A stretch of DNA of 64,000 nucleotides. It comes from Maricaulis sp. (lineage in GTDB: Bacteria > Pseudomonadota > Alphaproteobacteria > Caulobacterales > Maricaulaceae). The position numbers and the translations under genes were made by a program. Positions 2,681 to 56,529 of this stretch are shown in pieces. Each line of letters opens with the position of its first letter. Within the stretch, counting starts at the first letter, position 1. The stretch spans positions 1 to 64,000 of the forward strand of contig NZ_JADFAJ010000018.1 in assembly GCF_015665295.1 (NCBI RefSeq). Reading direction: 5' to 3'. A model generated the notes under the pieces. It was not told the origin of the DNA. It did not search any database and saw nothing but the letters and a program-made list of their open reading frames with translations.

Positions 2681-3421
2681 TCAGTCTGACAGCAGCACAT
2701 AGCGGCGATGCGCCGGCAGGACCGGGCGGGCATTGTCCTCGACCAGGTCGGTGAAGGCCCGGATCTGTTCTGCCGAGGCTTCGATGGGTGTCGGGAAGAC
2801 CGTCCAGCTGACAATTTCCGAGCAGGGCGGCGTGGTCAGCGAGCCCTCATAACGGAAGACCGGTTCGTCTGCCGGGATGAAGCGCTCGAGCGACAGCATG
2901 GCAGGACCCGCGCCGGACTCACCTTCGCCCGGGATGGCGGCCCAGAGTGTCTCGAGGTCCGGATGTGCTTCACCTTCCTCGAACATGACGCCGACCACGG
3001 CGAGGGCGCCGTCTTCCGAAGCGGTCACGAAGTGCACTTCCATCGGGAAGTCCTGACCATCGATGTGATGCTCGGAGCGGGCGTGGAAGTGGAATTGCAG
3101 CAGGGTGAAGTCGACGCCATTCAGCGTCAGGCCGGCATCAACGCTGTCAGCGCTGTAGGTGACGCCGTGCGCATTGCGGCTGACCTGCACACCCGAGATC
3201 GAGTTCAGCATCAGGGATGGTGCGGCACCGCTGGCGGAAATGGCGCCGGTGAGGTCGATCGGGCTTTGCTGGGTCCCCGCCGAGCAGACACCAAATTCCT
3301 CGCTCAACGAACCCCAGTGATCCGGGCCGGTATCACCGTGATAGCTCCAGTCCTCGGCACTGGCCAGGGCGGAAACAGACAGGGCGACGGCAATGCCGGT
3401 CGCGGTGGACAAGGTCTTCAT
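2681..3421 (-). CDS. Alpha-type carbonic anhydrase with signal peptide
   Basis: Signal peptide MKTLSTATGIAVALSVSALASA; zinc-site motif FHFHARSEHHIDG...MEVHFV; QQSPIDL; SLTTPPCSE. Confidence 0.95.
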   Translation of the reverse strand: MKTLSTATGIAVALSVSALASAEDWSYHGDTGPDHWGSLSEEFGVCSAGTQQSPIDLTGAISASGAAPSLMLNSISGVQVSRNAHGVTYSADSVDAGLTLNGVDFTLLQFHFHARSEHHIDGQDFPMEVHFVTASEDGALAVVGVMFEEGEAHPDLETLWAAIPGEGESGAGPAMLSLERFIPADEPVFRYEGSLTTPPCSEIVSWTVFPTPIEASAEQIRAFTDLVEDNARPVLPAHRRYVLLSD

Positions 3422-49730: not shown

Positions 49731-49881
49731 ACTTTCCTCCCCACGTCGTGGGGAGGTGGATCGCCCGGCAGGGCGAGACGGAGGGGTCGGCCTAGCCGAT
49801 GGCGGCCCCTCGGCGCTGACGCGCCGCCCCATCGACCCGATGCTGCGCATCGGCCCACATCCCCATGGGATGGGGAAGAAA
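49731..49881. repeat. Gene-less inverted pair of two-hairpin elements (MITE-like), ends ACTTTC...GAAAGT
   Basis: CCTCCCCAC-GTC-GTGGGGAGG, TCGCCC-GGCA-GGGCGA, CGATGC-tgc-GCATCG, CCCCAT-ggg-ATGGGG; opposite orientations. Confidence 0.6.
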
Positions 49882-49933
49882 GTGATCGCGTGCCCGGCCG
49901 GCGTGAGGGGCAATCGTCCGATTGTCACATATT

Positions 49934-54147: not shown

Positions 54148-54753
54148 ATGTACACGCCCACACATTTCCGGATGGAAGACGAGAGCGAGATGCGGGCGGT
54201 GATGCGTTCGTATGATTTCGGTCTGCTGCTGATTCCGGGCGAGCCTGATCTGGCGGCCACGCATATCCCTTTCAAGCTGGCCGATGAGCGCCTGGTCCTG
54301 ATCGGTCATGTCGCCATGGCCAATCCGGCCGCCGGGGCGATCAAGGCGGGCAGGGAGGCGATGGTCGTCTTCACCGGTCCGCACGCCTATATCTCGCCGA
54401 CCTGGTATTCGCGGCCGCACGAGAATGTGCCGACCTGGAATTATGTCGCCGTGCACGCCTTTGGTACGCTGGTGCCGCTCGAGGGTGTCGAGGCCGAGCG
54501 GGCGCTTTCGTCGCAGATTGCGGACTTTGAAAGCGAGTGGCGCATTACCCAATTGGAAGAAAAGCGCCGCGCCATGCTGGAGCTGGCCATCCAGCCCTTC
54601 GAGTTCGAGATTGACCGCCTGGAGGGCAAGGCCAAGCTCTCCCAGAACAAGCCATTGGAGGAGCGTCTGCGCATCGCCCACGCCCTCAATGAACGCGGCG
54701 AACACGCCGTCGCCTACCACATGATCGAGGACGAGGCGGAAGAGGATGATTGA
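54148..54753 (+). CDS. PaiB-like FMN-binding protein
   Basis: MYTPTHFRMED...VVFTGPHAYISPTWYSRPHENVPTWNYVAVHAFG. Confidence 0.92.
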   Translation: MYTPTHFRMEDESEMRAVMRSYDFGLLLIPGEPDLAATHIPFKLADERLVLIGHVAMANPAAGAIKAGREAMVVFTGPHAYISPTWYSRPHENVPTWNYVAVHAFGTLVPLEGVEAERALSSQIADFESEWRITQLEEKRRAMLELAIQPFEFEIDRLEGKAKLSQNKPLEERLRIAHALNERGEHAVAYHMIEDEAEEDD

Positions 54754-54777
54754 TCTGGTCTATCCCCAGGCCCGGCC

Positions 54778-54805
54778 TTTCTGCCCCCGCTTGCGGGGGA
54801 AGTGG
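54778..54805 (+). repeat. Left arm of 28-bp perfect inverted repeat flanking DUF559 gene
   Basis: TTTCTGCCCCCGCTTGCGGGGGAAGTGG. Confidence 0.95.
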
Positions 54806-54874
54806 TTGAGCGTCAGCGAAACCGAAGGGGGCCGGCGGCGGGCACGCCGACGGTCGGTGCAGCTGCGCCAATCC

Positions 54875-55321
54875 ATGACCGATGCCGAGCTCATCCTCTT
54901 GTCACGTCTGCGCAAGCGTCAAATCGAGGGGCAGCATTTCCGTCGTCAGCATCCGGTCGGCCCCTACATCACGGATTTCGCCTGCGTGGCTCTCAAACTC
55001 ATCGTCGAGGTTGATGGAGACACGCATGGCAGCGACCGAGAAATCGCCCACGACACACGCCGGACCGCCTATCTCGAGCGCCAGGGCTGGACGGTGCTGC
55101 GGTGCTATAATGTCGACGTCTATCGCAATCTCGATGGCGTCATCACGCAAATCGGGGAGGCCGTGCATGAATTGGGTCAGCGCTCAATGACTGACACGCC
55201 GCTGCGCGGCGCCCCCTTCGACCCTCCGTCGCCAAGGCGCCGAAGGGCCACTTCCCCCGCAAGCGGGGGCAGAAATACCCAGTCGATAAAGGGAACCACC
55301 CCGCCAAGGGAAAGGAAGTGA
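54875..55321 (+). CDS. DUF559 endonuclease-like protein (ORF open from 54746, reading through both repeat arms)
   Basis: [92 protein letters not shown]-(D/E)xK-like ITDF...IVEVDG. Confidence 0.88.
55248..55275 (-). repeat. Right arm of 28-bp perfect inverted repeat
   Basis: CCACTTCCCCCGCAAGCGGGGGCAGAAA, exact reverse complement of 54778-54805. Confidence 0.95.
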
Positions 55322-55323
55322 CC

Positions 55324-56529
55324 ATGACAGAAGCTTATATCTTCGACGCCACGCGCACGCCGCGCGGCAAGAAAAAGAACGGGGCGCTCAACGAGATCAC
55401 CGCGCTGCAGCTGGCCACCCAGCAGCTCGCCGCGATCCGTGACCGCAATAATCTCGACACTTCGCTCGTCGATGACGTGATCATGGGGGTCGTCTCGCCG
55501 GTCGGTGAGCAGGGCGCCAATATCGCGCGCTCGGCCGTGATCAATGCCAATTATGCCGAGACCACGGGCGGCTACCAGCTCAACCGTTTCTGCGCCTCGG
55601 GCCTGGAAGCGGTGAATGTCGCGGCCGCCAAGGTGATGTCCGGCGAGGCCGATTTTGCCATTGGCGGCGGCGTGGAAGCCATGTCGCGCGTGCCGATGGG
55701 CTCGGATGGCGGCGCCATGGGCGTCGACCCGGAGATTTCCTTCGACCATTACATCGTGCCGCAGGGCGTCTCGGCCGACCTCATTGCCACCAAGTACGGC
55801 TTCAGCCGCGACGATGTCGACGCCTATGCCGTGGAAAGCCAGAAGCGCGCCGCCCAGGCCTGGGCCGAGGGGCGTTTCGCCAAGTCGGTTGTCGCCGTGA
55901 AGGACCAGCTGGGCACCACCATTCTCGACCATGACGAGCATATGCGTCCGGGCACCGACATGCAGGGCCTCGGCTCGCTGAAATCGGCCTTCAAGGACAT
56001 GTCCGACTTCGTCGGCTTCGAGGCCGTCGCCACCCAGCGCTACCCCGAGATCGAATATCTCAACTGGGTCCACACGGGCGGTAATTCCTCGGGCATCGTC
56101 GACGGTTCGGCCATGGTCCTGGTCGGCTCGAAAGAGGCGGGCGAGCGCGCCGGTCTCAAGCCGCGGGCGCGGATCCGTTCGATGGCCTCGATCGGGTCGG
56201 AGCCGACCATCATGCTGACCGGCCCGGTTCCGGTGACCGCCAAGGCGCTCAAAAAGGCCGGCATGGAAGCGGGCGATATCGACCTGTGGGAGCTCAACGA
56301 GGCCTTTGCTGCCGTCGTACTGCGCCTGATGCAGGCCTATGACATCGACCATTCCAAGATGAATGTGAATGGCGGCGCCATCGCCATGGGTCACCCGCTG
56401 GGCGCCACCGGCGCGATGATCCTGGGCACCGTCCTCGACGAGCTGGAGCGCACGGGCAAGCAAACCGCCCTGACCACGCTCTGCGTCGGCGGCGGCATGG
56501 GCACGGCCACCATCATCGAGCGGGTCTAG
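55324..56529 (+). CDS. Acetyl-CoA C-acyltransferase (thiolase)
   Basis: [76 protein letters not shown]. Confidence 0.96.

Follow-up and report, generated by a model that had tools for sequence, protein, structure and literature searches.

A DUF559 gene of Maricaulis sp. lies between two inward-facing REPs of one family, in the 64,000-nucleotide stretch of contig NZ_JADFAJ010000018.1 that was analyzed here (the window). DUF559 genes from other genomes are likewise associated with C-rich hairpin REPs. These REPs face inward, each gene clade has its own REP family, and the gene has been copied as a unit that ends at the ends of REPINs (inward-facing REP dimers). On balance, we consider it probable that DUF559 is a REP-associated, REP-specific nuclease and that its gene, framed by REPINs, spreads into REPINs through homing-like copying. 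For a REP class that has no assigned spreader, DUF559 is thus a strong candidate for this role.

RESULTS

The DUF559 gene of the window is bracketed by inverted REPs

An earlier note on this DNA had described a perfect 28-bp inverted repeat around a DUF559 gene, and this repeat proved to be exact: its arms (54778-54805 and 55248-55275) are 28 nt each, 100% complementary, and spaced 442 nt apart (Table 1). The ORF reads through both arms, as had also been noted, so that the true start codon of the gene is uncertain. The DUF559 domain (PF04480) occupies residues 33-139 of this ORF (E = 2e-31). The sequence GAAGGGGGC stands inward of each arm, at 54824-54832 and, reversed, at 55211-55219, and the tail GAAGGGGG of the left element is the mirror image of GGGGGAAG. 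Of 920 anchors placed at random in 400 kb of this genome, one (1/920) had an inverted repeat of at least 18 bp over a gene-sized gap, and none (0/920) had elements on both sides. When the two window arms were folded as DNA on their own, the result was not significant (z = -0.8 and -0.4), so that the argument is based on recurrence and comparison and not on the energy of folding. A plasmid search with the window's left element returned zero matches. Since a PADLOC search for defence systems gave weak matches only (E of about 4e-4 to 5e-4), there was no sign of a known defence system.

The architecture of the window arms had also been likened to that of a pair at 49731-49881, and we found the same layout, with the gene absent, at 49732-49884: a hairpin, GTGG, a second hairpin, and then a GGAGGGG or GATGGGG tail. 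The DNA fold z values of the arms of this 49.7-kb pair were -3.1 and -2.3.

Table 1. Positions of the REP elements, the DUF559 gene, and its neighbors in the window
Feature	Coordinates	Strand	Description
Gene-less REPIN (inward-facing REP dimer)	49732..49884	.	Element A 49732-49786 (+), element B 49827-49884 (-)
paiB-like gene (FMN_bind_2)	54148..54753	+	Left flank of insertion site
DUF559 ORF	54746..55321	+	Domain 54842-55162; PD-(D/E)xK/Vsr/EDxHD-like nuclease
Left REP element	54778..54832	+	TTTC, stem1 (54778-54805), GTGG, variable second segment, G-tail GAAGGGGGC (54824-54832); faces gene
Right REP element, inverted	55211..55275	-	Tail GCCCCCTTC (55211-55219), variable second segment, stem1 arm 55248-55275
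Acetyl-CoA acetyltransferase (thiolase) gene	55318..56529	+	Right flank; probe for empty/filled relatives

DUF559 genes are associated with C-rich hairpin REPs

The window's genome (G000, 3.16 Mb) contains four DUF559 genes, and all four (4/4) have hairpins on both sides, with a stem sequence of their own for each gene. We sampled further DUF559 loci from relatives, from the class, from the phylum, and from named genomes of many phyla. Hairpin-based detectors were used in place of element regexes, which missed imperfect stems, including the window's own. With the exact-stem detector, at least one C-rich hairpin REP was found within 350 bp of 143/159 sampled DUF559 genes, a pooled count that is not fully independent, as the sets share some of their loci. 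The loci L030 and L026 of two relatives are 100% identical to records named Maricaulis (L232 and L250, respectively), which is the genus concerned. By set, the counts were 26/31 for the relatives, 25/28 for the class, 25/26 for the phylum, and 67/74 for the named genomes, with hairpins on both sides in 18/31, 12/28, 12/26, and 40/74, respectively. Four exceptions read by eye (L200, L203, L216, and L233) do have paired elements, with imperfect stems.

Among control genes from the same genomes, a C-rich hairpin was near only 2/30 GNAT acetyltransferase genes and 1/51 GIY-YIG genes (1/28 plus 0/23), giving Fisher P values of 1e-16 for DUF559 in the named set versus GNAT and 5e-33 for all DUF559 versus GIY-YIG. 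The density of hairpins fell with distance, from ~5.4/kb within 150 bp of the DUF559 domain to ~0.1/kb beyond 800 bp (80 loci of the named set, from many phyla), and the predicted enrichment of hairpin elements at DUF559 genes was thus confirmed. The innermost G-tails mostly faced inward, upstream (50 versus 12 outward, 50/62) as well as downstream (49 versus 13, 49/62).

REP and DUF559 counts across 41 genomes were correlated (rho = 0.61; 0.39 with P = 0.012 after gene-adjacent copies were subtracted) and within the genus were not significantly so; this correlation was not used as evidence, because phylogeny is uncontrolled in it and the REP model (R1) is crude. REPs persist in some genomes without DUF559, such as G018 (47 hits) and G010 (21 hits), which, like the nonsignificant correlation within the genus, is a point against our best explanation.

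DUF559-linked REPs were found here mainly in alphaproteobacteria and also beyond them. At an AT-richer DUF559 locus of a member of the Dehalococcoidales (L272), AAATCCCCCTTAATCCCCCTTT-type repeats flank positions 3001-3309, which suggests that this common type of repeat belongs to the same class. The DUF559 genes of Rouxiella (L212) and Enterobacter (L270) have C-rich hairpin repeats on their downstream side; enterobacteria also possess GTAG REPs with RAYTs. A single in-frame stop interrupts the gene at L197 and at L239, so decay of DUF559 does occur. Two DUF559 genes of different clades (L315 and L316, G017:C7) lie less than 2 kb apart.

GIY-YIG genes are associated with CGTC REPs

CGTC REPs are the main alphaproteobacterial class and have been reported without a dedicated transposase (Di Nocera 2013, PMC3733652). 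With a strict detector, CGTC-type REPs lay within 350 bp of 22/51 GIY-YIG genes (on both sides of 11), 3/159 DUF559 genes, and 2/30 GNAT genes. A first CGTC detector, which allowed loops of up to 13 nt, had produced false hits at DUF559 loci, and these were removed by the strict version. Small GIY-YIG genes between inverted CGTC REPs were observed among loci L054-L083 and L165-L194 (e.g., L081, L169, L170, and L178). A literature search, conducted mostly outside subscription journals, found no report that linked DUF559 or GIY-YIG to REPs.

DUF559 clades correspond to REP families

Where a genome has several DUF559 genes, the left element of each gene matches the right element of that gene and not the elements of the others (mean local score, 38.3 versus 17.0), and 0/20000 within-genome permutations were as good. 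The DUF559 tree within the genus Maricaulis has three main groups. The group of the window's gene has TTTC-type elements only (10/10 typed loci), a second has CCTTCCCC elements (4/4 typed loci), and the third has TCTCCC elements (14/14 typed loci). Three clades thus correspond to three REP families in 28/28 typed loci; these loci include orthologous sites, which are mutually dependent, and no P value is attached to the pairing. Given that all three families share genomes, background composition is ruled out as its cause. Extra elements of a second type were present at L302, L312, and L313.

The G-tail mirrors the stem of its own element

In a DUF559-linked element, a C-rich stem1 is followed by a TG(G/C) linker, then by a second, variable hairpin, and then by a G-tail; GTAG is absent. 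The G-tail mirrors the 3' arm of stem1 in the same element, as in GGGGAAGG...GGAAGGGG, GGGGAGG...GGAGGGG, and GGGAGAAGG...GGATGAGGG. We collected 444 hairpins and scored the 392 whose arms are not mirror-symmetric; the tail matched perfectly under a G-to-G, A/T-to-A rule in 84% of the 392, compared with 15% for swapped sequences and 21% for direct copies. G facing G and A or T facing A are the rules of the antiparallel purine triplex, and the mirror G-tail, as read from its sequence, fits such a structure. A G-quadruplex or recognition by a protein would be alternatives.

The REPIN-framed gene has been copied as a unit

The complete sister genome G015 (3.37 Mb) contains a 669-bp REPIN-DUF559-REPIN unit twice. 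The two copies have an identical 427-bp core, which includes the ORF, and unrelated flanks; each of the seven differences between them (7/7) falls within a REPIN arm or at its edge (P = 8e-4 for this split). Beyond the REPIN ends, CCCCTCACCC and GATGAGGGGG, the copies are no longer homologous, and inspection by eye showed no target-site duplication at either copy. One copy (L308) occupies a site that also holds a DUF559 gene in the window's genome, and the two genes are not sisters. The other, younger copy lies between era-like and recO-like genes. This era-recO site holds a plain REPIN in G006 and G018, with the same right junction as in G015; elsewhere it holds a REPIN (G012), a CGTC REPIN (G001, L350), or, in several species, nothing. 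The REPIN of the relatives differs from that of G015 in orientation, which is opposite, and in sequence. This is a point against our best explanation, and it makes a conversion tract untraceable at this site. A second within-genome DUF559 pair, in G012, is 88% identical and likewise diverges at the REP elements.

A second DUF559 site also has empty, REPIN-only, and filled states, as at era-recO. At this second site (L381, L382, L383, and L389), REPINs of different families occur by species at the same junctions. The earlier note had read the paiB-thiolase junction as an insertion site and had called for a comparison with empty sites in relatives, and the same three states were indeed found there. 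The paiB-thiolase DUF559 gene forms one clade in 7 genomes (support, 93/92), and the gene tree thus rejects a recent insertion at the window site: the window's copy is an old resident, and the gene has been lost elsewhere. Because the gene at the paiB site has been inherited within one clade, DUF559 movement must be rare, which is another point against our best explanation. Overall, DUF559 genes are intergenic and occur at many sites, neither in an intron or intein nor beside one fixed target gene.

Taken together, the hairpin density and its controls, the gene-by-gene matching of left and right elements, the clade-family pairing, the duplicated unit with its REPIN ends, and the three site states bear out the idea that DUF559 travels with hairpin elements. 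The same five lines of evidence support the view, likewise proposed before, that the gene-less pair is a non-autonomous form.

The enzyme resembles homing endonucleases of the EDxHD family

All 71 homologues share the same residues at the D, E-x-D, H, and R positions, which are putative catalytic residues. Judged by dN/dS between DUF559 copies (0.04-0.23), the family is under purifying selection. When an AlphaFold2 model of the DUF559 protein (pLDDT 83) was searched with Foldseek, the order of matches was 3hrl (Neisseria NGO0050, itself a DUF559 protein), the catalytic domain of I-Bth0305I (3r3p; E = 7e-5, TM 0.58/0.69), and then Vsr (1vsr), which matched more weakly (E = 1e-3). The predicted fold is thus closest, after another DUF559 structure, to the homing endonuclease I-Bth0305I and then to Vsr. 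A sequence profile also reaches 3r3p (E = 4e-4). The EDxHD group is accepted as a family of homing endonucleases (PMC3943268), and one DUF559 gene has already been placed in it (PMC9403480). Two Rhizobium phage homologues of the DUF559 core (MN988561 and MN988559) bear a homing endonuclease annotation.

The only in vivo data that we found for a DUF559 protein concern Caulobacter VsrA (CCNA_02930), the one member that has been characterised, which is responsible for the SOS response/DNA damage in scmA mutants and was proposed to be a Vsr (PMC12907096). Its interpretation there as a mismatch-repair nuclease linked to YGCCGGCR methylation is a further point against our best explanation. PF01797 genes (Y1/RAYT, HUH) were absent from both G000 and G015; some relatives do have Y1 proteins.

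DISCUSSION

We propose that the REP-gene-REP arrangement, with a gene between inward-facing REPs of one family, would be the autonomous form of the REPIN and that the many gene-less REPINs of a genome would be its non-autonomous relatives. The DUF559 enzyme most likely recognises its own REP family and would nick or cut the REP at the hairpin or at the G-tail. Repair from another copy would then move REPINs, and sometimes the gene-bearing unit, to sites that hold, or are able to accept, a REPIN. The data show the association with REPs, its specificity for REP families, the inward orientation, purifying selection, and the copying of the unit together with its REPIN ends. We infer that DUF559 itself cuts REPs and that it would spread by homing-like gene conversion rather than by transposition via a single-stranded intermediate.

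REPINs might instead be moved by host recombination or by another enzyme, with DUF559 riding as passive cargo by ectopic gene conversion. As dispersed repeats, REPINs are natural substrates for recombination; the differences between the G015 copies are confined to the REPIN arms and their edges, a pattern expected of exchanges between REPINs, and the same intergenic sites accept several REP families, even a CGTC REPIN. Random cargo, however, would not nearly always be one gene family whose clades match REP families, nor would its putative catalytic residues be invariant and its dN/dS as low as 0.04-0.23, and GIY-YIG and GNAT genes are not found between C-rich REPs. We regard passive carriage as unlikely. 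Somewhat less likely still is a role in Vsr-like repair, in which DUF559 would act on T:G mismatches or damaged hairpins, perhaps to keep REP hairpins in check, and would have no part in mobility. The Foldseek match to Vsr and the DNA damage that Caulobacter VsrA, proposed to be a Vsr (PMC12907096), causes in scmA mutants would fit such a role. It leaves unexplained the matched inward REPs on both sides, the single REP family per clade, the patchy presence and several copies per genome, and the duplicated unit with REPIN ends, and in the model a homing endonuclease is a closer structural match than Vsr.

The earlier note had suggested a RAYT-like mobile unit. The mobile unit stands, in that it has been copied with its REPIN ends, but the enzyme is not a RAYT: it lacks HUH and is PD-(D/E)xK/Vsr/EDxHD-like. 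Mobilisation of the REPs by a RAYT or other HUH transposase, with DUF559 incidental, is very improbable. RAYT-REP systems share the layout (PMC3733652) and Y1 proteins occur in some relatives, but the proposal as it stands is refuted for G000 and G015, which lack PF01797 even though G015 holds a recent copy, and the elements lack the GTAG motif. We give the least credence to a hotspot artefact, in which REPs would gather around any small dispensable gene. Filled sites are indeed intergenic and variable in relatives, but GIY-YIG genes have CGTC and not C-rich REPs, DUF559 genes the reverse, and GNAT genes neither; this double dissociation already contradicts the idea of a general hotspot.

A REP-specific nuclease of the DUF559 type would resemble, and differ from, several known systems. 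Like the REPtron (RAYT/TnpA_REP with GTAG REPs), the unit is a single gene between inverted REPs of its own family, has dispersed gene-less REP dimers and gene clades tied to REP families, and shows no target duplication at the G015 copies. Unlike in the REPtron, the enzyme is of the PD-(D/E)xK/Vsr/EDxHD type and not an HUH-tyrosine enzyme, and the REPs are C-rich and free of GTAG, with the TG linker, variable hairpin, and mirrored G-tail described above. The unit thus works like a REPtron but is not one, given that its enzyme is unrelated and GTAG is absent; what is new, within the REPtron idea, is a REP partner enzyme unrelated to RAYTs. The likeness to EDxHD homing endonucleases lies in I-Bth0305I, the closest solved relative outside DUF559, and in the proposed copying into gene-less sites, whose genomic footprint is the new copy at a REPIN site. 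In contrast to these endonucleases, the DUF559 gene lies outside introns and inteins, its product of ~110 aa has no additional DNA-binding domain that we recognised, and its presumed target is a dispersed intergenic repeat, not one conserved gene site. Vsr and Caulobacter VsrA have the same fold class as predicted for DUF559; a search within PMC12907096 found no mention of a link between VsrA and REPs, and vsrA is not linked to a methyltransferase gene there. Unlike CGTC REPs, the DUF559-linked elements lack the CGTC tag, the AT-started stem, and the CCA tail (strict detector), and unlike in classical IS/MITE, target-site duplication was not seen at the unit ends (two G015 copies, by eye).

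DUF559/EDxHD and GIY-YIG are two unrelated superfamilies known for homing endonucleases. It is possible, although we hold this only tentatively, that each drives its own REP class by homing into a dispersed repeat and that the third-strand purine tail of the DUF559-linked REPs (antiparallel triplex: G over G, A/T over A) would be part of the recognised structure. Should REP cutting be demonstrated, homing with a dispersed repeat as its target would be a new kind of phenomenon.

Few repeats are as common in bacterial genomes as REPs, and we know of no enzyme for the alphaproteobacterial REP classes. Should the missing partner be DUF559 (and, for CGTC REPs, GIY-YIG), direct tests of where these repeats come from would become feasible, a function would be assigned to a large protein family now annotated as unknown, and nuclease genes that home into dispersed repeats would represent a new route by which bacterial genomes are populated.
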